Origin: Candidatus Saccharimonadota bacterium
Lineage (GTDB): Bacteria > Patescibacteriota > Saccharimonadia > Saccharimonadales > Saccharimonadaceae
Direction: 5' to 3'
DNA: 64,000 nucleotides
NCBI GenBank assembly: GCA_017404335.1
Contig: JAFRCN010000006.1
Location: forward strand, 62,001-126,000
This document shows positions 20,930-59,770 of this stretch, one piece after another. The notes under the pieces are model-generated. The model was given only the letters and a program-made list of their open reading frames with translations, did not search any database and was not told the DNA's origin. The position numbers were made by a program, and so were the translations under genes. Numbering within the stretch: position 1 is the first letter of the stretch; each line of letters starts with the position of its first letter.

Positions 20930-21094
20930 AACTAAACTAAACTACTATTTTCTCAGCGGTAAAATTACGCCAAGATAAAAATTACAACATTCGTCGGTTC
21001 TCGAACTGGAACCTTCCAGTTCTCGAACCGGAAAAGTTGTAATTTTTATATGGGTAATTTTACATGCTTCGAAAATAGTAGCTTAGTTTAGTTT
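20930..21094. repeat. Palindromic element, family D, copy D1
   Basis: Between pilM and tlyA. Outer arms CTACTATTTTC / GAAAATAGTAG continue with CTAA/TTAG repeats (20930-20952 and 21071-21094) and are specific to this site. The 118-nt core (tcagcGGTAAAATTAC ... GGTAATTTTAC-atgcttc) is shared with copy D2. Inner stems ATAAAAATTACAAC/GTTGTAATTTTTAT are conserved, while the apical stem (GGTTC..GAACTGGA / TCCAGTTC..GAACC) differs between copies yet stays paired. Confidence 0.9.
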
Positions 21095-29838: not shown

Positions 29839-32800
29839 TTAATTTGCAAGGGTGAAGGACCTACCCGAAGGCGGAGTAGCAGTCACCGAAGTAGTGTTGC
29901 CGTAAAGATTGGAAGCGGTATTGGGGATAGGACCGGTAGCGGTACCATTGTTGGTTTTAGAGATGGTGATGGACCAGGTGGTGGCATTGTAGCCGGTAGA
30001 GGAGAACATACTAGACATATTTGTTACGTTAGAAGTATCCCAAGAGGAGAGGTCTAGAGTGAAAGTGGTGGCATTGTAGCCGGTAGAGAGGAACATACTA
30101 GACATATTTGTTACGTTAGAAGTATCCCAAGAGGAGAGGTCTAGAGTGAAGGTGGTGGCATTGTAGCCGGTAGATAAGAACATGCCATACATAGTACTTA
30201 CTTTAATCGTACGCCAAGTAGAAATGGTAGATAGGTCGGATAGGACGAACATCCCGCGGAAGAGATCGTTGGAATTATTATTCATAAATATATTTGTAGC
30301 TTCGGAATAATAATAGATAGTAGTACTTTCCGAATTATACCAAGCATAGATTGGAATTGATGAAGAACTATGAGAGATAGTGTTTGCCGCATTAGGATTA
30401 AAACCGTCTGGTAAAGTATCGGAACGGATGAGAGCGGTAATGGCATTATCCTGAGTCGTATACGAAGCGGAATTGTTACCAGCTAGACGTTTTAATTTTT
30501 GGTTTACAGTAGAACCAGCGCTTAGATAAGCCCCCTCTGCCCAAACTGCATAGAGAGTAATAGTATCACCAGTAGTAGTGAGGTTAGTAACCTGTTGGCT
30601 ATCGCTATAGAAGGTGCCGGTACCGTCAGCGCTGGTATTCCAACCGATGAAGATGTGGCCAGCAAGAGTAAAGGTATTGGTTTTAATAGTGGTAGCTACG
30701 TCTCGTACGACCGTTTGGTTGGTCATAGTGCCAGTGCCGCCATTAGCGTTAAAGGCTATATAATAGATTTCATCCCACTGGGCATAGAGGGTAACAATAT
30801 CGCCATTTGAGACGATTGAGGATAATAGGGTGTTGGGGGTTACGGTCATACCACTACCGTCAGCACGAGTGTTCCATTCCCTAAACTGGCTACCAGCCGG
30901 AGCAGTAAATGCGTTGGAGTCAATAGAGATTGAGTTAATATCGCCAATCTGGACCGGCATTGTACCAGAACCGCCATTGGCATCATAATGAATAGTCGCT
31001 GTACCATTACTGGCGACACAACGGACGGATTCGCCATAGCGTTTGTAGTTGCCGAAATAATCGGCAATACCGTAGGCAGTTGAATAATAAGCATATGGAG
31101 AGTTAAAGTTGGTAGAAGTCCATAATCTAAGGATGTTAGTTTGAGAATTAAAGCTAGTACCATTCCTGTAACCTGCATAAATGAAGCTATATGGCGCGGC
31201 ATTCATCTTGGCAAACGTAGTATTACCTGATGCCGTTCTTAGGTTATTGTATATAGCACTAGTTGGTAAGTCCCAACCTTTAGGACAGATGGAGGTAGTG
31301 ATGTTTTGATTGGAACTACTATAAGCATCAGTAGAAGCAATAGCGGCAGCATAGCTATAATAGCCGCCATAAGTATTATCAGTAAGAATCTTGGGACTGA
31401 TATAGGTATCATTATTGTTGGTAGTTTCAAAAGCTGTAGTAGAAGCTGGGGCTTTAAAGGTAGTACCGGATGGAAGGTCTGTATCGTAAGAGGTTAATAA
31501 TGCATCGTTGGTACCACCATAGTTTAAGTTCTTAGTAAGCCAGAGATTACCATCGGCGAGTTTAGCCACGGTGTAAGATTGTCCGTCACGAGCATCGATG
31601 AGGTTATAAGTGCCAATAGTTGCATCGGCTATAGGAAGGCTAGCTTTCATACTGGGCTTTACGTCTTGAAGACATACTGCATCGGTAGTAGTATTGCCGG
31701 TACCGATAGTGGTAGCGGTAGGATTACAGCTATTATTAGTCCAGATGGCATAGAGAACGGCATTCTGATCTTTAGTCCTAAAAGTACCTCCAGGTTGGAC
31801 TTCATTGCCTTTTTCATCCGTCCAGCCTGCGAAAGTGTAGCCGGAGCGGGTAGGAGTGGTGTTACTGATGGTGAATGTAACTAGACCGTTAGCAGAAATG
31901 GGCTCTGGTGAACTTGGAGCATTTGAGCCACCGTTGGCATTATAGGTAAGAGTATGGGTTTCTGGGTCAGAGGAGATGCACCTAATGCTGTAGCCATAGT
32001 TCTTAACCGTAGTGTTTGTGCCTGGTTTAACTGTATAATTATCTAGAGTTAGTTCATACGAATTGTTTACGTTTGACGCAGTGGACGACCAATAATTTCC
32101 GCTACCAGCATTACTAGACAACGAATAATCATAATAACCGGAGTAGAGGAAATTATTCGGGAAGTCTCTAAAGGCAGCTGAAGCGATTTTGCCGGCGATA
32201 TTAGTAGTGTATGGTGTGTAATAAGACTGTCCTGCATTTGGCCAATCTTCATAGGCAGTCATTATTTCATTCATAATTTTATAACCTAGATTATAAAATT
32301 CACGAAAGGTAGACATGTCTCCAGTTACGTTTACGCCACTAGTATTGCCACTTGCATAGGCCATACCTCCTGTGGGCAAGTGCCAGCCAACAGGACAAAG
32401 TGAGGTTCCGGTGGTAGAGTTATTGTTGGTGCTGTTTGTGGCCAAGTTGGCTATAGCTGCATGCCAAGTGTAATAGTTGCCATATGAGTACATGGCACTA
32501 CCGTTAGTAGTTGGATTGATGGCTCTATTAGTAGTATTGGTGTTATTATAACGGGGCATACGATTGGATGAATAGCTCGTACCGATATTTATGATGGCAG
32601 TTCCGCTTTGGGTCCCACTATAATATATACTATTCGGCGTAGTATTAAAAAAGCTACCAGACTCTGAATCAGCTAGACCAATAAAATTACCATAAGTTGA
32701 AGATTTGCCATAGCCTTGAGCTAGGAACTCATTGGTTAGAGACGGGTCGTTTTGGTTATTGCCTCTTGTAGCTTCAGCATCTAGCCTTAAATTTTCTATC

Positions 32801-33864
32801 ATCCAACATTTACCATCAGCTAGTCTAGCGATGGCGTAGACGTCGTTGTCTCTTTGGTCAGTTAAGGCGGTGATGCTTCTTTTGGTAAGGTCTAGAGCGC
32901 CAGTCGTAGCGTCATAAGTGGCAGTATCTAAATCATTACAACCTGTCCAACCTTGTAAGTCGCCTTGACTCGGTATCCAAACAGCATAGAGCTCTACTAT
33001 TCCGTCGTTGTCAGTATCATTATCTAGGAAGCCTTCTGGGATAGTGACGGATTCTTGGGGACCATAGACGATAGGATTATTAGTAGTATCGTTATCTATG
33101 AGTTTGGTCCCAGCATCGGGATCGGTGCTCCAACCAGCGAAGCCGTAACCATTTCTGCTAAAATTGGAGGCAATTAAGTTTACGGTGTCGCCTTCACGTA
33201 CACCACTATGAACGGCCGCCATGGTACCTTCATCGGCATTGTTGCCATCATAGGTAATATCTACCATAGTGCAAGTAGGGTCCATGGTCAAATAGTAGAC
33301 GATAGCACCGGGAACGCTGCTTTCTACTGGCATAGTATACGAACCAGGTTTGGCAATATTGGAAAGTTTAACGCCATAATAGACATCTAGGTTTTGGTTG
33401 GTAGCAGAAGTAGAGGAGGAAGACAAAACAGAAATCGTAGGGGAAAGACCAGTAAAACTACCAGAAATCGAGTTGCTGGCAGTACTGTAGCCCCACTCAT
33501 TAGTACTGAGAGTATCGGTACCAGAGACGGGATTAATTACAACATTATTGCTACTGCTCGTGTTATTAGTATCACCATTTAGATACAAACTAGCACTGGA
33601 AGAAGAACTACTGATTCCTAGATTGTAGCCCGCCGTGCAAGTAGTAGAGATAGTGAGGGTGTCTTTTCCTACACCAGTAGTATCACTGGAAGGATTAGGC
33701 GCGAGATTTAAGACGATATCGCCAGAAGTTGAGAGACTGACAAAGTGAGCGTGAGTGGGAGTAGAATATAATAGAGCAAAAAAGCACAAAAATAGACCCG
33801 CAACGACAAAATTTGAGGTCTTTTTAAATAGTTTTGTTTGTGTATGACGTGTTTTTGTTGACAT
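29839..33864 (-). CDS. Giant modular surface protein (InlB repeats, FISUMP and BspA-type domains)
   Basis: 1341 residues. Signal peptide with h-region VVAGLFLCFFALLYSTPTHA. In order: N-terminal beta domain (45-190); InlB-type repeat (GYGFAGWSTDPDAG, VELYAVWIP); FISUMP domain 1 (YAIARLADGKCWMIENLRLD, SLCPVGWHLPTGG, GYSIRCISSD); InlB repeat (GYTFAGWTDEKG); FISUMP domain 2 (YTVAKLADGNLWLTKNLNYG, SICPKGWDLPTSA, GESVRCVAS); two InlB repeats (about 965-1110); and BspA-like repeats (WDTSNVTNMSSMF). No cell-wall anchor or transmembrane tail. Start supported by CGGAG. Probably an adhesin for host bacteria (inference). Confidence 0.88.
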   Translation of the reverse strand: MSTKTRHTQTKLFKKTSNFVVAGLFLCFFALLYSTPTHAHFVSLSTSGDIVLNLAPNPSSDTTGVGKDTLTISTTCTAGYNLGISSSSSSASLYLNGDTNNTSSSNNVVINPVSGTDTLSTNEWGYSTASNSISGSFTGLSPTISVLSSSSTSATNQNLDVYYGVKLSNIAKPGSYTMPVESSVPGAIVYYLTMDPTCTMVDITYDGNNADEGTMAAVHSGVREGDTVNLIASNFSRNGYGFAGWSTDPDAGTKLIDNDTTNNPIVYGPQESVTIPEGFLDNDTDNDGIVELYAVWIPSQGDLQGWTGCNDLDTATYDATTGALDLTKRSITALTDQRDNDVYAIARLADGKCWMIENLRLDAEATRGNNQNDPSLTNEFLAQGYGKSSTYGNFIGLADSESGSFFNTTPNSIYYSGTQSGTAIINIGTSYSSNRMPRYNNTNTTNRAINPTTNGSAMYSYGNYYTWHAAIANLATNSTNNNSTTGTSLCPVGWHLPTGGMAYASGNTSGVNVTGDMSTFREFYNLGYKIMNEIMTAYEDWPNAGQSYYTPYTTNIAGKIASAAFRDFPNNFLYSGYYDYSLSSNAGSGNYWSSTASNVNNSYELTLDNYTVKPGTNTTVKNYGYSIRCISSDPETHTLTYNANGGSNAPSSPEPISANGLVTFTISNTTPTRSGYTFAGWTDEKGNEVQPGGTFRTKDQNAVLYAIWTNNSCNPTATTIGTGNTTTDAVCLQDVKPSMKASLPIADATIGTYNLIDARDGQSYTVAKLADGNLWLTKNLNYGGTNDALLTSYDTDLPSGTTFKAPASTTAFETTNNNDTYISPKILTDNTYGGYYSYAAAIASTDAYSSSNQNITTSICPKGWDLPTSAIYNNLRTASGNTTFAKMNAAPYSFIYAGYRNGTSFNSQTNILRLWTSTNFNSPYAYYSTAYGIADYFGNYKRYGESVRCVASNGTATIHYDANGGSGTMPVQIGDINSISIDSNAFTAPAGSQFREWNTRADGSGMTVTPNTLLSSIVSNGDIVTLYAQWDEIYYIAFNANGGTGTMTNQTVVRDVATTIKTNTFTLAGHIFIGWNTSADGTGTFYSDSQQVTNLTTTGDTITLYAVWAEGAYLSAGSTVNQKLKRLAGNNSASYTTQDNAITALIRSDTLPDGFNPNAANTISHSSSSIPIYAWYNSESTTIYYYSEATNIFMNNNSNDLFRGMFVLSDLSTISTWRTIKVSTMYGMFLSTGYNATTFTLDLSSWDTSNVTNMSSMFLSTGYNATTFTLDLSSWDTSNVTNMSSMFSSTGYNATTWSITISKTNNGTATGPIPNTASNLYGNTTSVTATPPSGRSFTLAN
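29981..30175. repeat. 87-bp in-frame tandem repeat in the surface protein
   Basis: Units start at 29981 and 30068, with a partial third at 30155; the spacing is exactly 87 bp (29 codons). They encode TGYNATTFTLDLSSWDTSNV followed by TNMSSMF. The copies are almost identical, so the duplication is recent and copy number may vary. Confidence 0.9.
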
Positions 33865-34997: not shown

Positions 34998-36233
34998 GTG
35001 AAAATTTTAGGGATTGAGACGAGTTGTGACGAGACGGCGGCTTCGGTGGTTCTAGACGGGGTTACGATTTTGTCGAACGTCGTGGTGTCGCAGATTGATA
35101 TTTTTGCTGAGTATGGAGGAGTGATACCGGAGGTCGCGGCACGGAGTCATTTAGAGGCGATTTTACCGGTGATTGATAAGGCACTTTCTGATGCTAACTG
35201 TACTTGGGATAATATAGACGCGATTGCGGTGACGCATGCGCCGGGGCTTCTTGGGTCGCTGCTTATTGGGACTTTGACTGCTAGAACTCTTGCGATTTTG
35301 CATTCGAAACCGCTATATGCGGTGCATCATTTGAAAAGTCATGTGTATGCGAATTGGCTAAACACAGAGAATCAGAATAATATTTTCGCGACGCGCTCGC
35401 GCCGTCCCGTCGTTACGGGCGGCGCTTCGCTCGTTCCCTCCCCGTTGGTCGGGCATGGTCGCGAAAAAATTCATTCTGATTCTCCACGGTTCCCTTTGCT
35501 TGCATTGGTGGTTTCGGGAGGACATACGCAGATTTTGTATATGAAGGGGCATAATCAGTTTGAAATCATTGGAACGACGCGTGATGATGCGGTCGGAGAG
35601 TGCTTTGATAAAGTCGCAAAAATACTCGGACTGCCGTATCCGGGAGGACCATCAATAGCGAAGGCCGCAAAAGGAAAGATGTCGGTAGGCACAGCGTGCC
35701 CTTCGGGCACGCTCCGGGCCGCTCTGGCCAAGTCTTCATGTCCCGCAGGACACACCGTGCCTACCGACATCTTTCCTGGTGATCCCGATCGATATCGGTT
35801 TCCGCATCCGAAAGTTGAGGGGTTGGATTTTTCGTTTTCGGGGCTCAAGACGGCTGTGCTTCGCGAGGTGCAGAAGGAAGTCGGGGTGCCGATTTCGTAT
35901 CCGTCTTTTAAGCTAAAAGAGTTGCTTAGCCCACAACAGGTTTGTGATTTTGCAGCGTCGTTTCAGAGGGAAGCAATAGAGATTTTGGCTGAGAAGGTCG
36001 AGAAGGCGGTCTCGATGTATTTGGACGCTCGGTCGATTGTGGTCGCCGGAGGAGTAAGTGCGAATGAAGAGCTAAGAAAGAGACTTAAAGACGCTTACTT
36101 CCCTGCCCCGAAACTCTCGGGGGACAATGGGGCGATGGTGGGAGCGGCGGCGTATTATGAAATTATTTCAGGAGTGGAGCCGACCGACCCGTATGCTCTC
36201 AATATCTATCCGCGGGTTTCGATCGAAAGCTAG
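34998..36233 (+). CDS. tsaD: tRNA A37 threonylcarbamoyltransferase, with two in-frame element insertions
   Basis: 411 residues from a GTG at 34998; TATAAT (34986-34991) ends 6 nt upstream. TsaD completes t6A37 on ANN-decoding tRNAs. Visible: VKILGIETSCDETAASVV, metal site HHLKSH, LALVVSGGHTQIL, DDAVGECFDKVAKILGLPYPGGP, DFSFSGLKTAVLREV, VVAGGVSANEELR and the final SGDNGAMVGAAAYYE. Relative to normal TsaD there are two extra segments. One is after ANWLNTENQNN (element B1), the other after GPSIAKAAKG (element A1), each about 30-35 residues in a surface-loop position. All core motifs remain. Confidence 0.93.
   Translation: MKILGIETSCDETAASVVLDGVTILSNVVVSQIDIFAEYGGVIPEVAARSHLEAILPVIDKALSDANCTWDNIDAIAVTHAPGLLGSLLIGTLTARTLAILHSKPLYAVHHLKSHVYANWLNTENQNNIFATRSRRPVVTGGASLVPSPLVGHGREKIHSDSPRFPLLALVVSGGHTQILYMKGHNQFEIIGTTRDDAVGECFDKVAKILGLPYPGGPSIAKAAKGKMSVGTACPSGTLRAALAKSSCPAGHTVPTDIFPGDPDRYRFPHPKVEGLDFSFSGLKTAVLREVQKEVGVPISYPSFKLKELLSPQQVCDFAASFQREAIEILAEKVEKAVSMYLDARSIVVAGGVSANEELRKRLKDAYFPAPKLSGDNGAMVGAAAYYEIISGVEPTDPYALNIYPRVSIES
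35367..35484. repeat. Palindromic element, family B, copy B1 (inside tsaD)
   Basis: Arms GAGAATCAGAAT...TTTTCGCGAC (35367-35392) and their inverse complement (35458-35484) enclose a core with the family hairpin CCCGT-cgtt-ACGGG and the GCGCTTCGCTCG block. The arms resemble no other copy. The frame stays open (peptide RSRRPVVTGGAS). Confidence 0.88.
35673..35776. repeat. Palindromic element, family A, copy A1 (inside tsaD)
   Basis: Perfect 20-bp inverted arms (35673-35692 and 35757-35776, beginning GGAAAGATGTCGG) flank a core of about 60 bp that is nearly identical in A2 and A3. Core hairpins: GTGCCC-ttc-GGGCAC, GGCC-gctct-GGCC, and a GTCxT...AGGAC stem. It encodes GTACPSGTLRAALAKSSCPA in frame. 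Confidence 0.92.
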
Positions 36234-37066: not shown

Positions 37067-39280
37067 TTAGGGGAGGAAGAAGAGGGTGCGGGCGAGGGGG
37101 AGGACAAGTGAGGTCGCAAAGAGGAAGAAGATAAGCATTAAGAGGGAGGCGCGGAAATAATTGAGGGGTTTAGAGATGCGATAGATTAGGACGAAGCCGA
37201 TGACGAAAACTACGAGAGAGGAGAGGGCGGTCAGTTCGGAGCGAGAGATGTCGAAAACGGCGGCGAGGATTGAAAGGGTGAGGGCGGAGACGGCAACAAG
37301 AAGGCCGGTTGGAACGGAATAATGCTTGATATTGTTGACGAATTGGTTTTTGATTCTTTCGGTGTTGTTTTCGAGGGCGAGAGCGAGGCCGGGGAGGCCG
37401 ATGCAGAGGAAGTTTAGAAGGGACATCTCAATCGGGGAGAAGGGATATTCGAAGGGCAAGACAACGAAGAGGACGGCAAGGAGAGAGGCGTAAACAGTTT
37501 TACTGAGGAAGAGGGTGGCGGAGCGTTCGAGATTATTGATTGATCTTCTGCCCTCCGCGATAATGCTGGGGACGGATTTGAAATCGGAATCTAGGAGGAC
37601 GAGCTTCGCGGAACGACGGGCGGCGTCGGAACCTTCGCCGATGGCGATGGAAACGTCGGCTTCTTTCATGGCCAAGATGTCGTTCACGCCGTCGCCGGTC
37701 ATGGCGAGGGTTTTGCCTTGCTTTTTTAGAGCTTTAATCAGGGAACGTTTCTCGGATGGAGTGACGCGGGTGAAGATGTTGTAGTTTTTTACGAGCTCGG
37801 CGTAGTTTTTAGTTTTTACGTCGGAGAGGTTAATGGCGTTGACGCCCCTTAGGCCGACTTTTTCGGCGATTTTTTCTACGGCGGATTTGTCGTCGCCAGA
37901 GATAATTTTGACGTCGATGTTGTTGTCGTAGAAGTACTTGATAATTTCTTTAGCATCGGGGCGGAGTTCGTCTTCGAGGCGGATGAAACCGAGCAACTTA
38001 TCTGTTTGAACGCGAGAATACCCGTCGTTCTCGGAACGCTCCCTCGCGCCCGTCGTTACGGGGCTCGGTCGCTCCGTATTTTCCCCGTCGGAAAATATGC
38101 TCCTCGAACGAGGGTATTCCTCGCGTTTAACCACGGCTAGAGTACGGTAGGTGGCGGAGGATTGTTTGACCTGGTTGATGATTTCTGGGTCGGAGGTGAT
38201 GAAGTCGATGGCGCCGAGGAGGTAGGTGGCATTTTTTGTCTTGATGCCGGAGTATTTGCGGTCGGAGGAGAAGTCGATGACCTCGGTAATGCCATTTATT
38301 TCGTCAAATTTGGCATTTTTTAGGAACTTTTGCTTCAAAGCGGTTATGGTAGCGTTGTCGGCGGATTGATGGCTTAGAATCGACGCTAGGACCCTCTCAA
38401 ACGATTTATCGAGGGTGGTATAGTCATGGACTTTCATTTTGCCGGTCGTGAGGGTGCCGGTCTTGTCGAGGGCGATGCAATCGACCCGGGCGAGAGTTTC
38501 GATCGAATAGAGGTCTTGGACGAGGACTTTTTGTTTGGATAGTCTAATCGTTGCGAGAGCAAGGACGGAGCTCGTTAGGAGGACGAGGCCCTCGGGAATC
38601 ATGTTGATAAGAGCGGCGACGGTGCTGGTCACGGCGACTTCGGTAGTCGTATCAGGGACGCGGAATCTCGACCAAAGGAGGAGAGCGCCAATGGGGATGA
38701 GGGCAATAGAGATGTATTTTACAATATTGTTCATGATTGTAAAGAGCTTGCTGTCGGCGGTTTTGATGGTTTTGGCGGAGCTTTCGAGCTTGGAGATGAG
38801 CGAATCGTTTACGTCGGTCGTTGCGAGGGCTTTACAGGAGCCGGAGATGACGAAGCTACCAGAGAGGAGCCGGTCGCCTTTATTCTTATGGATATTGTCC
38901 TGCTCGCCGGTGATGAAGGATTCGTTGACTTCGATAGTTCCCTGCTCGACGGTCGCGTCGACGAGGATTTGGTCGCCGAGGGCGAGAGACATTAAATCAC
39001 CCTTTTTGATCTCGCTTGCGGGGATTTGGTAGGATTTACCATCTCGTATGACGGTCGGTTTTTGCTCGGAGAGGAGACGGAGTTTATCGATAGTTCTTTT
39101 TGCGCGGATTTCATTGATGATGCTGATTAGGGTGTTTGCGATGGCGATGAGGATAAAAAGGAGGTTTTTGTAGGAGCCTACAGAGATAATCATCAGGGCG
39201 AGGATGAGGTTGACGAGATTAAAAATCGTACAGAGGTTTTTAAGAATAATCTTCGGGTACCCATTTAATTTTTGACTCAT
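37067..39280 (-). CDS. P-type cation ATPase, with an in-frame element insertion
   Basis: 737 residues from the ATG at 39280 (TATAAT ends 6 nt upstream). Motifs: TGEQ in the actuator (ESFITGEQDNIHKNKGD), phosphorylation site CIALDKTGTLTTGKM, VKIISGDDKSAVEKI, MTGDGVNDILAMKEADVSIAIGEG. Membrane helix 4 has NMIPEGLVLLTS, the PEGL type, not the CPx of heavy-metal pumps, so a Ca/Mg/K-type cation is more likely. No N-terminal metal domain. Residues near 390-430 (SPVTTGARERSENDG) come from palindromic element B2 within the nucleotide-binding domain. Confidence 0.88.
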   Translation of the reverse strand: MSQKLNGYPKIILKNLCTIFNLVNLILALMIISVGSYKNLLFILIAIANTLISIINEIRAKRTIDKLRLLSEQKPTVIRDGKSYQIPASEIKKGDLMSLALGDQILVDATVEQGTIEVNESFITGEQDNIHKNKGDRLLSGSFVISGSCKALATTDVNDSLISKLESSAKTIKTADSKLFTIMNNIVKYISIALIPIGALLLWSRFRVPDTTTEVAVTSTVAALINMIPEGLVLLTSSVLALATIRLSKQKVLVQDLYSIETLARVDCIALDKTGTLTTGKMKVHDYTTLDKSFERVLASILSHQSADNATITALKQKFLKNAKFDEINGITEVIDFSSDRKYSGIKTKNATYLLGAIDFITSDPEIINQVKQSSATYRTLAVVKREEYPRSRSIFSDGENTERPSPVTTGARERSENDGYSRVQTDKLLGFIRLEDELRPDAKEIIKYFYDNNIDVKIISGDDKSAVEKIAEKVGLRGVNAINLSDVKTKNYAELVKNYNIFTRVTPSEKRSLIKALKKQGKTLAMTGDGVNDILAMKEADVSIAIGEGSDAARRSAKLVLLDSDFKSVPSIIAEGRRSINNLERSATLFLSKTVYASLLAVLFVVLPFEYPFSPIEMSLLNFLCIGLPGLALALENNTERIKNQFVNNIKHYSVPTGLLVAVSALTLSILAAVFDISRSELTALSSLVVFVIGFVLIYRISKPLNYFRASLLMLIFFLFATSLVLPLARTLFFLP
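38009..38127. repeat. Palindromic element, family B, copy B2 (inside the P-type ATPase)
   Basis: Arms AACGCGAGAATACCCGTCGTTC (as 38009-38030) and the matching inverse at 38106-38127, two small gaps. The core has gcgCCCGT-cgtt-ACGGGgctcg, and then a second hairpin TATTTTCC-ccgtc-GGAAAATA specific to this copy. Reading frame kept. Confidence 0.87.
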
Positions 39281-40246: not shown

Positions 40247-41401
40247 TTAGGGATGGAGTTTTTGGAGGAGTTTGTGGAGGTGGAAGAAGGGGGAGAGAGG
40301 GGCTTCGTGGGCGCCAATAAGCTCAGTTACACGGCCGGTTTCTTCGGAGGTAAAACCTTTTTTGAAGTCGTAGATGCCGTAGTCTTTGGAACTTGGATCG
40401 GGAAGACCGTTGATGCCGTAGAAATTGTAACGCTTGAAACCTTGATCGGCTGCGAATTTGATCATGTGCCACTGGATTAGGTATTGGGCGTTGTAGTCTT
40501 TCATGTATTTTTCGTCGCTACCGGAGAAAAGGTAAATCACCTCGTCGCCGTAGAGCATAAACATGGCTGCGGATAAAGGAATTGGGGTGACAGAATGCAC
40601 TGCGTGCCCTTCGGGCACGCTCCGGGCCGCTCTGGCCAAGTCCTCATGTCCCGCAGAACACGTAGCGCATTCTGCCACCCCAGTTGCTTCTGCGAGCATG
40701 AATTTCACTTCGCCGCGGGGGGTGAAGAGGTCATACATTTGTTCGTAGTAGGAGAGGGGTTTGTCGGAGAAGTGGCGTCGGAGTGAGGTAGATTCGGTGA
40801 TTTGTTTGAAAATTTTGAGTTCTTCCCTTTTTAGCTCGCGGACTTTGACGCCCATTTTTTCGGCTTTCCGAATGTGGTTTCTGGTGTTTCGTTTCATCTC
40901 AGCGAAAATTTGGTCTTTTGTACGGTTTTTTATGTCGAGAACGAAGCTATACTTAGGTTGGCCCGAGCCGGGAGCGGGTTTAAAACCGAGGTTTTTTAGG
41001 TTTTCTTCGGCTATTTTGTGGTTAAAGCCGTTTTCGGCGACTTCGCCGTTTCTTTTTCGTTCAACAACTTCGTAATATGGATCAATGCGGAGGACGTAGC
41101 CGTTATGAGTTTTAGCGAATTTTTTAAGGTTTTTTAGGAAAAAGTCGGTTAAGGGCTTATTTTCGAGATCGAGTAAGGGGCCGCCTGGGGCGATGAAAGT
41201 AGATTTACCGAGGAAAGTTGGTTTTGCGATAAGGAGGGTTGCGGCGAGAAGTTTGCCATCTTCTTCGACACCTAAGTAATAAGCAGTCCAGCCGGAGCTT
41301 TCGCGGTGTTTCGCGATTTCGGGGGTTTCGGCGAAGGATTTATAGGGAGAGGTTTTCGCAAAATTTCTAAATTCTGTTTCGGTTAGGCTTCTAAATCTCA
41401 T
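40247..41401 (-). CDS. FemAB-like aminoacyltransferase, with an in-frame element insertion
   Basis: 384 residues. GNAT-type FemA/B/X fold: FAKTSPYKSFAETPEIA, YVLRIDPYYEV, FAEMKRNTRNHIRKAEKMGVKV, AAMFMLYGDEVIYLFSGSDEKYM, WHMIKFAADQGFKRYNFYGING, FKKGF. FemAB proteins add interpeptide-bridge amino acids from aminoacyl-tRNA to peptidoglycan precursors. Residues about 240-270 (AECATCSAGHEDLARAARSV) come from palindromic element A2. It follows its paralogue with a 4-bp overlap. Confidence 0.88.
   Translation of the reverse strand: MRFRSLTETEFRNFAKTSPYKSFAETPEIAKHRESSGWTAYYLGVEEDGKLLAATLLIAKPTFLGKSTFIAPGGPLLDLENKPLTDFFLKNLKKFAKTHNGYVLRIDPYYEVVERKRNGEVAENGFNHKIAEENLKNLGFKPAPGSGQPKYSFVLDIKNRTKDQIFAEMKRNTRNHIRKAEKMGVKVRELKREELKIFKQITESTSLRRHFSDKPLSYYEQMYDLFTPRGEVKFMLAEATGVAECATCSAGHEDLARAARSVPEGHAVHSVTPIPLSAAMFMLYGDEVIYLFSGSDEKYMKDYNAQYLIQWHMIKFAADQGFKRYNFYGINGLPDPSSKDYGIYDFKKGFTSEETGRVTELIGAHEAPLSPFFHLHKLLQKLHP
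40584..40681. repeat. Palindromic element, family A, copy A2 (inside a FemAB gene)
   Basis: Arms GGGGTGACAGAATGC.. (40584-40604) and ..GCATTCTGCCACCCC (40661-40681) match over 18 of 21 bp. The core is nearly identical to A1 and A3 but is read in the opposite orientation relative to the host gene compared with tsaD, and is still open. Confidence 0.92.
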
Positions 41402-44616: not shown

Positions 44617-47427
44617 TTAAATGAGGGAGAGTTGTTGCTTTAAGCGGTCGATGAGAGCGGATTTTTCTTTAATGGCGTCTTCGGTTTCTTTGACGAGATT
44701 TCTGGGGGCCTTATCGACGTAATTCGGGTTCATCATGCGGGCGTTCAGAGAATCGAGCTCACGACCGACGGCTAAGATTTTTTCGGTTAGGGCGTCTTTA
44801 TAGGCGTTGACGGTTTTTTCGTCGACGTCGAGATAGAGCTCGTGGTTGGCGAGAGCGAGTCTTAGGCCTCTAGGAGCGCCGCTAAGGGCGTTAATCGCCG
44901 GGACCTTGGTAAGAGTGCGGATTAAGAGCAGATTATCCTCTACGAGGCTGTCCTTGTCGTAAAGTAGGTTAAATTTCTTGTCCTTATTGGCGCCTGGGAG
45001 GCTCGCTAAGGTGCCTCTGACTTCGGAGACGATAGTTCTTATGCTTTCGAAGTTCTCGGCCGAAATTGGGTCAAATTCGAGCCGAGAAGGCCATTTTTCG
45101 GCGATAATGAGGCCGGAAGTCCAGGATAAGTTCTGCCAAATCGTCTCGGTGACGAAAGGAGCGAAAGGATGAAGGGCGATTAATAGAGTTTCGAGGGTTT
45201 TCTTTAAGAGGCCGACATTTTTGTATAGCTTTTGGCTCTCGAGGAACCAGTCGGCGTATTTGTCCCAAATGGTTGAATAGAGAGTTTCGACGGCTTCGGA
45301 GAAACGGTAATTTTTCATCGAGGTTTCGAGTTGGTCTAAACAGGCGTTAATTTCGCGACAGATCCAGTCTTCGCCCATGTTATCAGTCTGACACGACAAA
45401 AGAACAGAGCCTCTCGTCGCCTCCTCGCTCGCGCCCGTCGTTACGGGGCTCGCTTCGTCGTTCGCTCCCGTTGTCGCGAATGCTCCTCGAGACTCTGTTC
45501 CTTTGTCATCATCGACGATGCCTTGGATGAGGCGAGAGATGTTCCAGAGTTTGTTGCAGAGGTTGCGGCCGGAGATGACGGATTGCTCGGAGAAAGCTTG
45601 GTTTAGGCCAGCGGAGCGGCCGCGAAGGATGCCGAGGCGGAAGGCGTCGGAACCGTACTTCGTAACGAGGTCCATCGGGTTAATCACGTTGCCCTTGGAT
45701 TTACTCATTTTCTTGCCGTGTTCGTCTAGGACAAGGCCATGCAAATATACCTCGCGGAAGGGAACTTCGCCAGTCACATAGAGACCCATCATAATCATGC
45801 GGGCGACCCAGGCGAAGAGGATGTCGGCGCCGGTTTCCATGACGTTTAATGGATAGTAGGGGTTGAAGTTTTCCTCGGTCCAATTAGTGCAGATGATAGG
45901 CCAGTGACTAGAGGAGAACCAGGTGTCAAAGGTATCTTCGTCGCGGATGTATTTGACGCCGGATTTTTCAATTTCTTTGAGGTTGGTGCGGCGGTCAAAA
46001 ATCCATTCGGGCTCGTCAGTAGCCTCTGCCGTGGCGTTCCTAAACATAGGAATGGCGATACCCCAAGGAATTTGGCGGGAAATGTTCCAGTCTTTTAAGT
46101 TTTCGAGATAGTTGATGATAATGTTTTTCTTCGAGGCGGGGTGGAATTTGATTTCGTCATTCTTGAGATGCTCGATGGCGGTTTTGGCGAGAGATTTGAC
46201 GTCGACGAACCACTGGTTTTTGAGCATGGGCTCAATCGTCGTGCCACATTTATAACAATGGGCGACGGAATGAGTAATCTTTTTCTCACCTTTTAGAAGA
46301 CCTTGGTCTTTTAGGTCTTTTAAAACTTGCTTACGACATTCCGCCGTGGTTAGACCTTCGTATTTTTCGGGGACGTTGATCATTTTGCCGTCTTCGGAGA
46401 TGACTTGGATACGTTCGAGATTATGGCGATTTCCGACTTCAAAATCATCGAAATCGTGCGCCGGAGTGATTTTTACGGCGCCGGAGCCGTATTCGGGGTC
46501 AGCGTGTTCGTCGGTGATAATCGGAATTTCACGGTCGGTTAGAGGAAGATGGACGGTTTTGCCGATTAGGTCTTTATAACGGTCGTCGTTCGGGTTCACC
46601 GCAACGGCAGTATCGCCGAACAGGGTCTCTGGGCGAGTAGTAGAAACAATAATATCGTCGTAAGCGATGTCCCAAAGAGTGCCGGGTTCGTCGAGGTGGT
46701 CGACTTCGATGTCGGCGAAGGCGGTCTGGTGCTTTGGACAGAAATTGACGAGCTTTTTGTCGCGGTAAATGAGGCCGTCGTTCCACATTTTTTCGAAGGT
46801 TGTATAGACGTGGTCGATGACGTTTTCGTCGAGGGTAAAGGTCAGGTCGTCCCAAGTGCAGGAGGCGCCGAGGGCGCGGAGCTGGAGCTCCATGTTGCCA
46901 CGTTGCTCGGCGACGAAGTTCCATACCCTAGAATAAAGCTCGTCGCGAGAGAATTCAAAGCGAGTGTGGCCGTGCTTTTCGAGCTCACGCTCGTAGACGA
47001 CCCAGGTTTCGAAACCAGCGTGATCGGCGCCAGGGATGAACCAGGCGGATTTGCCTTTAAGGCGGTAGTAGCGAGTAAGGGAGTCTTCGAGAGCAATCGT
47101 GAGACCGTGACCGATGTGGAGGTTGCCGTTGGCGTTCGGAGGAGGCATGACGATAGAGAAAGTTGAAGAAGCTGAATCGGAGCTTCTCGTCGCCTCCTCG
47201 CTCGCGCCTGTCGTTACAGGGCTCGCTTCGTCGTTCGCTCCCGTTGTCGCGAATGCTCCTCGAAACTCTGATTCAGCTTCTCTTAATTCCTCTCTATCGT
47301 CGTGACCGCTGGCGTCATCGTCGACGGGGACAGTGGGGATGGTGGGGTCGAAGACGCCGGAAGTTTCCCAGGCGGCGTAAATATCGGATTCGTATTGGTT
47401 CGGTTCGTAACTACTCGCAAATTTCAT
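44617..47427 (-). CDS. valS: Valyl-tRNA synthetase, with two in-frame element insertions
   Basis: 936 residues. Class I synthetase: HIGH as NGNLHIGHGLTIALEDSLTRY near residue 103, editing domain with TTRPETLFGDTAVAVNP, PHxE region and KMSKSKGNVINPMDL near 570, anticodon-binding and C-terminal coiled arm (KEKSALIDRLKQQLSLI). Two nearly identical peptides (GAFATTGANDEASPVTTGA) lie before the catalytic domain and at its junction with the anticodon-binding domain; they are encoded by elements B4 and B3. TGCTAAAAT ends 6 nt before the ATG. Confidence 0.94.
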   Translation of the reverse strand: MKFASSYEPNQYESDIYAAWETSGVFDPTIPTVPVDDDASGHDDREELREAESEFRGAFATTGANDEASPVTTGASEEATRSSDSASSTFSIVMPPPNANGNLHIGHGLTIALEDSLTRYYRLKGKSAWFIPGADHAGFETWVVYERELEKHGHTRFEFSRDELYSRVWNFVAEQRGNMELQLRALGASCTWDDLTFTLDENVIDHVYTTFEKMWNDGLIYRDKKLVNFCPKHQTAFADIEVDHLDEPGTLWDIAYDDIIVSTTRPETLFGDTAVAVNPNDDRYKDLIGKTVHLPLTDREIPIITDEHADPEYGSGAVKITPAHDFDDFEVGNRHNLERIQVISEDGKMINVPEKYEGLTTAECRKQVLKDLKDQGLLKGEKKITHSVAHCYKCGTTIEPMLKNQWFVDVKSLAKTAIEHLKNDEIKFHPASKKNIIINYLENLKDWNISRQIPWGIAIPMFRNATAEATDEPEWIFDRRTNLKEIEKSGVKYIRDEDTFDTWFSSSHWPIICTNWTEENFNPYYPLNVMETGADILFAWVARMIMMGLYVTGEVPFREVYLHGLVLDEHGKKMSKSKGNVINPMDLVTKYGSDAFRLGILRGRSAGLNQAFSEQSVISGRNLCNKLWNISRLIQGIVDDDKGTESRGAFATTGANDEASPVTTGASEEATRGSVLLSCQTDNMGEDWICREINACLDQLETSMKNYRFSEAVETLYSTIWDKYADWFLESQKLYKNVGLLKKTLETLLIALHPFAPFVTETIWQNLSWTSGLIIAEKWPSRLEFDPISAENFESIRTIVSEVRGTLASLPGANKDKKFNLLYDKDSLVEDNLLLIRTLTKVPAINALSGAPRGLRLALANHELYLDVDEKTVNAYKDALTEKILAVGRELDSLNARMMNPNYVDKAPRNLVKETEDAIKEKSALIDRLKQQLSLI
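45395..45507. repeat. Palindromic element, family B, copy B3 (inside valS)
   Basis: Arms GACAAAAGAACAGAG (from 45395) and CTCTGTTCCTTTGTC (to 45507), one mismatch. The core of about 75 nt equals B4 except for a compensatory pair in the hairpin: CCCGT/ACGGG here, CCTGT/ACAGG in B4. Confidence 0.92.
47167..47283. repeat. Palindromic element, family B, copy B4 (inside valS)
   Basis: Arms GAAGCTGAATCGGAG (from about 47169) and CTCTGATTCAGCTTC (to about 47280). Same core as B3 but different arms. Located between the N-terminus and the HIGH motif of ValRS. Confidence 0.92.
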
Positions 47428-53681: not shown

Positions 53682-53841
53682 GAAACTAGGCTTATATTTT
53701 TCTCAGCGGTAAAATTACGCCAAGATAAAAATTACAACGTTCGTCGGCTTTCGAGCTGGTACTTTCCAGCTCTCAAGCCGGAAAGTTGTAATTTTTATAT
53801 GGGTAATTTTTACATGCTTCGAAAAATAAAAACCTAGTTTC
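53682..53841. repeat. Palindromic element, family D, copy D2
   Basis: Upstream of murE. Outer arms (53682-53702 and 53821-53841, GAAACTAGG...TATTTTTC) match each other at 19 of 21 positions and differ from those of D1. The core matches D1 closely, with the apical stem changed on both sides (GGCTT..GAGCTGG / CCAGCTC..AAGCC). Confidence 0.9.
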
Positions 53842-56092: not shown

Positions 56093-57325
56093 CTATTTTT
56101 CTGCTAAGATGACGAGATTTTCGATATGAGGAGTGCGAGGGAAGAAGTTGAAGGTTTTTACTGTTTTGATTTGATAATTTTTGAGTAAAAGTTTTACGTC
56201 GCGAGCTTGGGTGGAAGTGTTGCAGGATAAATAGATGATTTTTGCGGGTTTTACTTCATTTAGCTTATCAATTAACTTTCGATCGCAACCGGCGCGAGGA
56301 GGATCTAATATGACTGTTTGGTTGGGCTCGAGATAATTCGTCACGTTTTCGGATTTATCTAATAATGCAAGAATATTTCCATTTCGGACACGCTCGCGCC
56401 CGCCCGTCGTTACGGGGGGCGCTTCGCTTCGTCCGCTCCTCGTTAGTCGCGGAGATTCCTCAATGAAAATATTCTTGCTTAGTTCCATAAAAGCAAATTT
56501 ATCAATCTCAACCAAGGTGAGTTGTCGGTTGGGGGCGACGGAGAGGCCGATGGTGCCGACGCCGGAGTAGAGGTCGAGAACCTTGTCGGTGGTGACGTGT
56601 TTCTCAATCTCTTTGAGGGCGAGTTCGTAGACGGGGAGGTTGATTTGGAAAAAGCCGTTCGGGGAATAGGAATATTCTTGGCCGAGGATTTTATCGGTGA
56701 GGTTGTTGAAAGTCGGGTGGGGCTGGTTGTTTTCGTAGAGACCGCCTTCGACTTTACCGTCTTGGTTACACCTTAGAAGAAGAGATTGGTATTTGCGGGC
56801 TTCTTCGCCTCTTTTGTTTAATTCATTTACAATTTCGGTGGCGCGGGCGAAGATTTCGGGGCGTTCGATAGAGGAGCTTTTAATCGGGAGCTTTCGATGG
56901 GAACCGCGGGCGCGGAAGGCGAGGTCGATTCTATTGGTTTCATTATCATAATAGAGGGAATATTCCATCTTATTGCGGTAGAAATATTCTTTGCCGTCGG
57001 TAATAACTTCGGGAGGTTCTATTTCGATTTTTTCTTCGCGGAAGGATTCGACGACGAGGTCGGACTTTACTTTGTTTTCGGTCGCAAAATTGAGGATTTG
57101 CCAAGGAGAAGTAGAGAGAAAACAATCGTCTCTTGGATTGACGCGGTCTTTCGAAGGGTTGGTAATCTTCGTAGCGATGGCTTCGGAATATTTCGACTTG
57201 TTCTTCGTAATTTTATACTCTTCGACAATTTCGCCAGGAAGGGCGTTCCAGAAAAAGATTTTCTTGCCAGAGTCGTCGGTCGCGAGGGTCATGCCACCAG
57301 GGATAAATTTCTCGATTTTTAGCAT
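56093..57325 (-). CDS. RNA m5U methyltransferase (RlmCD/TrmA family), with an in-frame element insertion
   Basis: 410 residues, TATAAT ends 6 nt before the ATG. TRAM-like N-terminus, then the methyltransferase: FFQINLPVYELAL, VLDLYSGVGTIGLSVAP (SAM), VILDPPRAGCDRKL, and catalytic Cys in IIYLSCNTSTQARD. It methylates C5 of uridine in 23S rRNA or tRNA. The usual iron-sulfur Cys set is not evident. Between ELSKNIFIEESP and NGNILALLDK lies an extra peptide (SEAPPVTTGGRERVR) from palindromic element B5. Confidence 0.88.
   Translation of the reverse strand: MLKIEKFIPGGMTLATDDSGKKIFFWNALPGEIVEEYKITKNKSKYSEAIATKITNPSKDRVNPRDDCFLSTSPWQILNFATENKVKSDLVVESFREEKIEIEPPEVITDGKEYFYRNKMEYSLYYDNETNRIDLAFRARGSHRKLPIKSSSIERPEIFARATEIVNELNKRGEEARKYQSLLLRCNQDGKVEGGLYENNQPHPTFNNLTDKILGQEYSYSPNGFFQINLPVYELALKEIEKHVTTDKVLDLYSGVGTIGLSVAPNRQLTLVEIDKFAFMELSKNIFIEESPRLTRSGRSEAPPVTTGGRERVRNGNILALLDKSENVTNYLEPNQTVILDPPRAGCDRKLIDKLNEVKPAKIIYLSCNTSTQARDVKLLLKNYQIKTVKTFNFFPRTPHIENLVILAEK
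56367..56478. repeat. Palindromic element, family B, copy B5 (inside the m5U methyltransferase)
   Basis: Arms GCAAGAATATTTCCATT (from 56367) and the inverse AATGAAAATATTCTTGC (to 56478), one mismatch over 17. The core has GCGCCCGCCCGT-cgtt-ACGGGGGGCGC. Frame kept. Confidence 0.9.
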
Positions 57326-57371: not shown

Positions 57372-59681
57372 ATGGACTCGGAAGAGTTTTTAAGGGAGTA
57401 TGAGGAGTCTGCGCTCGAGGAAAATTCGGGTGAGGAGATTGTTTTGCATGTCTCGGGAAAAAGAAAAAATTCTTTCGGAAATAAAAAGAAGGGTGGGAAA
57501 TTAAAGAAGTTCGGAGCGATGGGATTTCTCACGGCGATGTTGGTGGTTTTTGTCGTTTTGTTTTCGTCGGGGAATTTAATTCCGGCGGCGTTGTCGGATA
57601 GGCTGGTCGAGGAAACGGATGTACAATACGCGGACGCGATGGAGAGTAAGAAATTAGTGTTTCAACAAGCGCTTTATTCTGGGTCGGTACCGAAAGACAC
57701 GACGGAGCTACTGAAGAATCGGGGGGTGCTGGTCGGATACGAGGAAAACGGTGAGTTTATTGAAACGAATCAGCGGGAGGGGGAGCTTTCTTTGAAAGTT
57801 GATAACGAGATTATATCGGCGAAGGATTTTGTAAAGGCGGAATGGGAGAATGTTAAACTGTACGACGCTTTTAACGAGGCGACGTATGGGCGGGCGGCGT
57901 ATTATTACGACGCGTCAGCGAGAAATGTGTTTTCGAGAATTGGGACGACACGAAATAATTATACGAGTGAATCGGATTTCGACGTAGTAATGGATAGGAT
58001 GATGGGGGAAGGAAGTTCGATTTCAGTGAATGATGTGGAGTTAGTTGAAAAAACACAGGAGCTCGAGGATGGGACGATTGAAAAATATAATGATTATGAG
58101 CTTGGGGGGTCGGCGGTAGGGTCTGGGTCGGCGAGTGGGTTTATTGAGGGGATAAGCGGGAAGAATACCGCCGGGTCAGTCACGGCGGCGACTTTAAACA
58201 CGGCGGATAGTTTAAAAGTCGCGGATACGATAGCGAAGGAAAAGCGGTCGAGTTTGTTTTTCCTTGGAGTGATGGAGAATATTTCGAAGATGAAGGCGGG
58301 GGAGGGAAGCGAATCGAAGTTAAACGAGGCAATGAATTATCTATATGAGCCGGCGACGACGGAGGTGGTAGATGTTAAAACTGGGGAAGTAGTGAAAGTC
58401 TCGGGGACGGCATTCGATTCGCCGAGTCTTTCGGCGATTCTGTCCGGGGATAAGGTTTTGGCAGAGAATGTCGAAAATTATTCCTCGGATAGAGTGCTCC
58501 GGACAGTGGAAAATCAACTTGGATTAGAAACGGCGGCGGTAAGTGGAGTTTCATCAGCGACGAGAGAAGCGATGGCCGGGACGGTGGCTTCGGCAGGGGC
58601 GTCTAATGGCTCTGGTTATGGTGGAGCTTCTCGCGGGTCGGGGATTCTCGGAGCGATCGGGAGGTTTTTCTCGGGAGGCGCGGAAAGAGCGAGTCAGGAA
58701 ATTGTAAATTTAGTTTCACCGACGATTTCTCGGTCGCTTGTAGATAATTCATTCAAGACGGTACGAGGGGTGGAAGCGGGAGAGTTTTTGGTCGAGGGGG
58801 CGATAAACGTCGGAAAGGAACTCGCGAAGGCGAGCGGGGCAACGGCGGGAGACTCGGGAGCGGTTTTGGCATATTTAAACTTACAGAATGCGACGCTCGC
58901 GATGGACGCGAAAGTGGATAGGATGAAGCGAAGTCCGTTTGATATTACTTCGAGAAATACGTTTCTTGGGTCGATTATGTATAAACTTGCGATTTTTTCA
59001 ATGAAAAATCGGAGTCTTAGCGGGTTTTCGACGTTAATTCGGGGAGTAAGGAATTTTTCAAGTATGACTTCGTCGGCGATTTTAAGTTTTACGCCGGGGG
59101 CATATGCAGACGAGAGTGAGGGGTATCTTTCGACTTTTGGGGAATGTAAGACGCTCGCGATGGCGGGGGCGGTCGGGTCGGCGGGATGCGCGATGATTGC
59201 GACGTTTGATACTTCGACGCTTAATGACACGTTTAATGATTCAGGGTTTCAGGCGTTTGTCGAAGCGAACACAAGCCTAGAGAGTGGGACGAGGAGAGTC
59301 TTAGAAGGGTCGAATCTCGCGAAATTTATTGATTATAATAACGAGAGGGTGCTTCCGGTTGGAGTATTAGACGGGGCGGCGATGAGTGGGTCGAAAGGGT
59401 TTTTCGCGGATATTCTCAGTATGATTAAAAGTTGGTTAGGGGCGGGGGAGTCGGAGAAGCGGATTGCGACAGGAGCGGCATTTACAAATACTTCGAGTAA
59501 TTATGATTGGAATACTTATAAATATGCGCAGAGGTATGTGTCACTGGCGCGAGCGACGGAGGCTTTGAAAATGTTTACGAACGACGCGACGGCGTATAGT
59601 ATTCCGTACTTTGAAGGCAATGAAAATCCGGTGATTGCGTATATAAACAGGTATAGCAACGTTGCAATAAAGCAGGAATAG
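57372..59681 (+). CDS. Large single-pass membrane protein, unknown
   Basis: 769 residues. TATAAT (57359-57364) ends 7 nt before the ATG. Acidic N-terminus, Lys/Gly-rich stretch, one clear helix near residues 55-75 (MGFLTAMLVVFVVLFSSGNL), then a long Ser/Gly/Ala-rich region. Possible second hydrophobic part near 530-560. A Cys pair (FGECKTLAM, GSAGCAMIA) occurs near residues 595-615. No enzymatic motif recognised. Amphipathic Ala/Ser repeats suggest an extracytoplasmic structural or secretion-system protein. Convergent with recF across element A3. Confidence 0.75.
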   Translation: MDSEEFLREYEESALEENSGEEIVLHVSGKRKNSFGNKKKGGKLKKFGAMGFLTAMLVVFVVLFSSGNLIPAALSDRLVEETDVQYADAMESKKLVFQQALYSGSVPKDTTELLKNRGVLVGYEENGEFIETNQREGELSLKVDNEIISAKDFVKAEWENVKLYDAFNEATYGRAAYYYDASARNVFSRIGTTRNNYTSESDFDVVMDRMMGEGSSISVNDVELVEKTQELEDGTIEKYNDYELGGSAVGSGSASGFIEGISGKNTAGSVTAATLNTADSLKVADTIAKEKRSSLFFLGVMENISKMKAGEGSESKLNEAMNYLYEPATTEVVDVKTGEVVKVSGTAFDSPSLSAILSGDKVLAENVENYSSDRVLRTVENQLGLETAAVSGVSSATREAMAGTVASAGASNGSGYGGASRGSGILGAIGRFFSGGAERASQEIVNLVSPTISRSLVDNSFKTVRGVEAGEFLVEGAINVGKELAKASGATAGDSGAVLAYLNLQNATLAMDAKVDRMKRSPFDITSRNTFLGSIMYKLAIFSMKNRSLSGFSTLIRGVRNFSSMTSSAILSFTPGAYADESEGYLSTFGECKTLAMAGAVGSAGCAMIATFDTSTLNDTFNDSGFQAFVEANTSLESGTRRVLEGSNLAKFIDYNNERVLPVGVLDGAAMSGSKGFFADILSMIKSWLGAGESEKRIATGAAFTNTSSNYDWNTYKYAQRYVSLARATEALKMFTNDATAYSIPYFEGNENPVIAYINRYSNVAIKQE

Positions 59682-59770
59682 TTTTCAGGCGTGCCCTTCG
59701 GGCACGCTCCGGGCCGCTCTGGCCAAGTCCTCATGTCCCTTAGGACACATCTGAAAACTATTCCTGCTTT
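59669..59770. repeat. Palindromic element, family A, copy A3 (between two convergent genes)
   Basis: Perfect 20-bp arms (59669-59688, AAAGCAGGAATAGTTTTCAG, and 59751-59770). The left arm contains the last codons and stop of the 769-residue gene; the right arm ends at the recF stop codon. Core as in A1/A2 with GCAGGAC changed to TTAGGAC. It could serve as a bidirectional terminator. Confidence 0.93.

Follow-up and report, generated by a model that had tools for sequence, protein, structure and literature searches.

The valyl-tRNA synthetase gene (valS) of a member of the Saccharibacteria contains two palindromic insertions, here called B3 and B4, that differ from each other by compensatory base-pair changes. 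We show here that they belong to a family of dispersed, mostly intragenic palindromes whose tips and site-specific outer arms change in concert, without any preference for G.U pairs on the mRNA strand. Taken as a whole, these observations are probably best explained by hairpin-templated (quasi-palindrome) correction, which would both keep the complementarity of the elements and build their arms.

Paired differences between two insertions in valS

The window, which is the whole stretch of 64,000 nucleotides that was analysed, comes from a genome whose closest relatives with a name are Saccharibacteria from the rumen and the gut, Candidatus Nanosyncoccus alces among them. Orthologues of valS were found in 60 genomes of the genus and in 80 loci of named Saccharibacteria. 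The gene and its two insertions have the following features:

44617..47427, minus strand: valS (valyl-tRNA synthetase), 936 aa, interrupted in frame by two palindromic insertions, from the open reading frame, its translation and orthologues
45395..45507, minus strand: B3 element, strict stem consisting of the core and part of the site-specific arms (stem scan, fold z -6.1)
45434..45447, minus strand: B3 tip hairpin CCCGT-CGTT-ACGGG, in which the pair 45436/45445 is C-G
45411/45491, minus strand: second compensatory pair of B3, C-G; the B4 counterpart 47184/47264 is T-A
47146..47304, minus strand: B4 element, strict stem with arms (stem scan, fold z -6.2)
47207..47220, minus strand: B4 tip hairpin CCTGT-CGTT-ACAGG, in which the pair 47209/47218 is T-A

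B3 and B4 have a 91-nt part in common (45407-45497 and 47180-47270, respectively), of which 87 positions are identical. The other four bases pair with one another, as 45436/45445 and 45411/45491, each pair being C-G in B3 and T-A in B4; no difference between the two copies is thus left without a compensating partner. An earlier note on this DNA had described the tip change as synonymous on both sides and the cores as otherwise almost identical, and the sequence letters bear it out. In the sense orientation CCC becomes CCT (Pro) and ACG becomes ACA (Thr), and translation yields SPVTTGA in both copies, within an inserted peptide that reads RGAFATTGANDEASPVTTGASEEATR in one and nearly the same in the other. 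The remaining two differences (45411 C/T and 45491 G/A), which the note did not include, pair with each other and are non-synonymous on both sides, replacing S by F (ESRG to SEFRG) and G by S (TRGS to TRSS). This second pair makes the confirmed observation a stronger one. The probability that four random sites would land on two pairs is ~1.3e-4, and the requirement of complementarity adds a further factor of 1/9. Compared with shuffled sequence, the folds of B3 and B4 reach z = -6.1 and -6.2, and none of 200 shuffles was equally good.

In the valS loci L025-L134 we found three hot spots, at protein positions ~48-84, 256 and 646-671, whose loops hold, from species to species, many different palindromic inserts in varied frames and orientations; L055 is a locus with B-type inserts in each of them.

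Anatomy and distribution of the palindromic families

The B core occurs in 17 copies in the 0.69-Mb genome, on both strands and mostly intragenic and in frame, the genes being valS (twice), tsaD, obg, ychF, queA, truB, argS, a P-type ATPase gene and others. These are unrelated conserved genes, and for the several genes that were compared there are orthologues with empty sites. On either strand the core is translated in several different frames, and no sense frame containing TAA (GCC CCG TAA) was seen among them. With their arms the elements measure ~100-150 bp, and the median stem span is 120 nt. Outside the core lie complementary arms of ~15-30 bp that are different at each site. Indeed, copies whose cores are as much as 97-100% identical can have unrelated arms, as with AGTGCTTGAAATAGTACC (L016), GACGCTAGATAATAACCC (L013) and GGGACCGAGAAGGCATC (L015). 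Of the 143 genera sampled in the order, just one contains the exact core tip, namely the genus studied here, in which 82 of 174 genomes have it. We regard the B family as short, non-autonomous palindromic insertions in the genes and intergenic DNA of this genus that are tolerated in protein loops.

Long stems (score >= 30) numbered 155 in 1.14 Mb, 10 of them in the window, and only one was found after block shuffling; base composition alone thus does not yield such stems. Besides B3 and B4, the window contains the following B elements and copies of a second palindrome family:

35367..35484, plus strand: B element in tsaD, in frame, with unique arms GAGAATCAGAAT.. / ..ATTCTGATTCTC
38003..38133, minus strand: B element in the P-type ATPase gene, in frame, with arms common to the obg copy
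56354..56491, minus strand: B element in an RNA-methyltransferase-like gene, in frame, with unique arms
35672..35777, plus strand: second family (core GCGTGCCCTTCGGGCACGC...) in tsaD, with perfect 21-bp outer arms
40576..40689, no strand assigned: second family, another copy, with unrelated arms
59669..59770, no strand assigned: second family, third copy, with perfect 20-bp arms AAAGCAGGAATAGTTTTCAG

The window has two more families of palindromes that are built to the same design as B. The three copies of the second family (core GCGTGCCCTTCGGGCACGCTCCGGGCCGCTCTGGCC...) have long, near-perfect arms that are unrelated between sites, and its tsaD host also carries a B element. A long AT-rich palindrome is present twice (20930-21093 and 53682-53841), with 65-68 paired positions and site-specific ends; the two copies are 82% identical over 128 nt, and no open frame runs through them. 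Another family (GACGGGTCCTGTCGTCGCCTCC...GGCGACACCACCCGTC, L018-L024), which came from a search of the source genome, is mostly intergenic and is found once in a cysteine-desulfurase-like gene (L019).

The obg copy (L012, G000:C6:91637) and the P-type ATPase copy (L014, 38003-38133) are one element at two loci, arms included, and their peptides are near-identical (REEYPRSRSIFSD.ENTERPSPVTTGARERSENDGYSRV). Arms can therefore move together with the core. In another genome (L150, G009:C1:2928-3605), a B core joins ychF to the gene in which L006 has its B element, and misassembly at the repeat is a more likely cause of this fusion than recombination between elements. Elsewhere in the window, three tandem 87-nt repeats (29978-30238) lie within an ORF of 1341 aa (29839-33864), possibly encoding a surface protein. 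A viral origin of the elements was considered and rejected, as IMG/VR yielded just one match (L257), which lacks the hairpin of the elements (its best stem scores 14) and arose by chance.

Concerted change at the tip and in the arms

Across the 174 genomes of the genus we recovered 310 copies of the tip pair, 289 of them C-G and 20 T-A. Independent one-sided substitution, the pattern that would speak against the reading of the earlier note, was looked for here and amounted to a single C.A copy, with no T.G copy. The T-A copies fall into at least seven different core backgrounds, and for several of them the nearest copy is C-G and not another T-A, indicating that the double change arose repeatedly. 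It occurs where it is synonymous (SPVTTGA, APVVTGL), where it is doubly non-synonymous (EPRNDGR to EPCNDRR) and where the copy lacks an open frame, and thus selection on the peptide cannot explain it. The claim that what is maintained is not merely the peptide is upheld by these same contexts. One might still suppose that B3 and B4 are simply two subfamilies, shaped by peptide selection or plain inheritance, whose differences are incidental. The synonymous tip change in valS would agree with this, as would the duplication of an element with its arms in obg and the P-type ATPase gene. However, given that all four differences between B3 and B4 are paired, and given the varied backgrounds, frames and nearest neighbours of the T-A copies, we consider this explanation extremely improbable.

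Selection and templating were weighed against each other by comparing filled with empty sites in valS (110 sequences), ychF and queA. About 35 empty sites in queA lack a comparable stem where the insertion would lie. In five species that carry one element family in queA, host codons ([KQC]-L-[TFI]-I) make up the left arm, and the right arm, an additional, inverted copy, tracks them base by base where they vary between the species (AAACTT/AAGTTT, CAGCTT/AAGCTG, TGTCTT/AAGACA), non-synonymous changes included. At valS site 1, pairing of the flanking host codons was 6.4 of 9 in filled and 5.4 of 9 in empty sites, a difference that shuffling showed to be non-significant (p = 0.17). The unique arms of most recent copies suggest that local sequence is the source from which arms are written, either during insertion or later.

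To count concerted changes we used 15 groups of same-family insertions at the same site, which are presumed to be orthologous. Given a change in the left arm, the right arm became complementary with a probability of 0.68, as against 0.09 expected from the right partner's own rate of change. Concerted changes made up 51% of the changed pairs, compared with 4-7% when the partners were slid by 1-3 columns; the members of the groups were picked for having a stem, which inflates concertedness, and the slid controls are under the same selection. In total, 217 arm changes were concerted and 165 one-sided. Adjacent double changes numbered 13, with 9.5 expected (p = 0.12), and with one genome per species a change in a single step looks the same as two quick steps. 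Where insertions have part of their arms in common, these arms changed in concert once the insertion was in place (L135/L140, the five queA copies and L028/L115/L033). In two core-less remnants (L188 and L193) the arms are still paired, so pairing is not kept for mobility alone.

These last observations bear on the idea that DNA hairpins are selected for mobility, with a trans-acting enzyme spreading the well-paired copies and with arms that are made once, as an inverted copy of the flank, and then decay. Near-identical cores with unrelated arms would be expected from such a process, equal numbers of G.T and A.C mismatches (see below) are the expectation for double-stranded DNA, and the obg and P-type ATPase copies did carry their arms along. 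However, arms that change in concert after insertion and stay paired after loss of the core are at odds with it. In addition, the REP-type Y1 transposase (PF01797) had no match in the source genome, whereas 5 of 14 control genomes were positive. Selection for mobility is therefore an unlikely cause of the pairing.

Compensatory base-pair change is usually taken as the gold standard for a functional RNA, and a hairpin needed in the mRNA, for its stability, its processing or the shielding of the insert, could be compensated one base at a time. The strong folds of B3 and B4 and the real covariation of tips and arms would both fit this explanation. However, the mismatches do not. In a stem search whose scoring weighted all mismatch types alike, the arms of 119 distinct coding elements had 3076 Watson-Crick pairs, and the mismatches on the mRNA strand were 64 G.T and 72 A.C (p = 0.55), which is to say no preference for G.U over A.C. 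The remaining elements had 68 G.T and 62 A.C, and copies without an open frame show the covariation too. As a loose control, ARAGORN favouring standard pairs, 40 tRNAs from the same DNA had 98 G.U and no A.C. There is also no G.U intermediate among the 310 tip copies. An Rfam search of the window returned tRNAs only, with no match at the elements. Structured RNA would be marked by G.U well above A.C and by a match to a known family, and neither was seen. Furthermore, the elements lie in unrelated genes and in several reading frames, which gives no hint of an RNA function common to them all. That the secondary structure of the RNA is under selection is accordingly very unlikely. Since G.T and A.C are about equally frequent in the arms, the process that keeps them paired most likely acts on DNA.

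Probable templated correction and known palindromic systems

Changes on both sides that restore complementarity, with no preference for G.U whichever strand is transcribed, are among the signs by which quasi-palindrome correction is recognised, and both are found in these elements. The earlier note had proposed either maintenance of secondary structure or hairpin-templated correction, in addition to the peptide. That pairing is kept, and not only for the peptide, has stood; of its two alternatives the evidence favours the second, as a process at the level of DNA, while templating specifically is what we infer. Under hairpin-templated correction, the nascent strand would fold back on itself during replication, and one arm would be copied onto the other by replication template switching. 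A change in one arm would then appear in the other in one step, whether it is synonymous, non-synonymous or non-coding. New arms may be built in the same way from local flank sequence.

SbcCD is a hairpin nuclease that attacks such structures in other bacteria. In 40 genomes of the genus no match to SbcD was found above the cut-off, while 13 of 14 control genomes were positive. By this search SbcCD appears to be missing, and its apparent lack in these reduced genomes may let palindromes survive and recombine. The elements might even spread without a transposase, if a core hairpin entered a gap at the replication fork and fold-back sealing wrote an inverted copy of the flank as new arms. We put this forward only tentatively, as a doubtful possibility. 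If true, insertion, arm formation and arm maintenance would be one process, namely template switching. To our knowledge, a transposition route by template switching has not been described for bacteria.

The elements provide a large natural case (174 genomes and hundreds of copies with known frames) in which strong covariation appears to be mutational, arising through templated copying, and not the result of RNA selection. The G.U/A.C asymmetry, the coding and non-coding copies, and the empty and filled sites offer material to separate mutation from selection. The elements also give rise to paired, non-synonymous changes in the proteins of Saccharibacteria, and the genes they interrupt are a challenge for assembly and annotation.

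The Rickettsia palindromic elements (RPE) and the protein-coding palindromic repeats of Wolbachia are hairpins of 100-150 bp, in several families, that are inserted in frame in unrelated conserved genes, where they are translated, and in intergenic DNA of small host-associated genomes (PMC2229807, PMC10969869). B elements resemble them in being dispersed palindromes of ~100-150 bp that interrupt many genes of a reduced genome without breaking the frame. However, B elements occur in another phylum, and their outer arms are site-specific and co-varying, which is not reported for RPE in either source (PMC2229807, PMC10969869). From their anatomy we class them as RPE-like and do not file them as RPE. 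REP/RAYT elements, which are MITE-like and mobilised by a Y1 enzyme, are likewise dispersed short palindromes without an enzyme of their own. In contrast, the genome studied here has no Y1_Tnp gene, and its elements are intragenic and have unique arms.

In the mitochondria of Nematomorpha, coding genes contain inverted repeats whose arms evolve in concert, for which template switching has been proposed, and a paired non-synonymous double substitution was found between individuals (PMC6649704). Those palindromes, however, are perfect repeats within conserved gene sequence and do not have a mobile core shared between genes, as B elements do. Quasi-palindrome template switching in E. coli, yeast and rRNA genes shows how one arm templates the other, with multi-base compensatory changes per event and homogenisation of arms, coding genes included, with non-synonymous effect (PMC7202029, PMC8604942, PMC8794818). 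The known cases mostly concern short arms, single loci or laboratory reporters, whereas B elements are a dispersed family with long arms in genes, at a density of 1-2 per 10 kb. The open-access literature that we searched had nothing relevant on palindromic elements of Saccharibacteria or of the candidate phyla radiation. Thus, coding palindromes and homogenisation by template switching are both already known; what is new is their combination with site-specific, co-varying arms, their occurrence in Saccharibacteria and the quantitative case for a covariation that is mutational and acts at the level of DNA.
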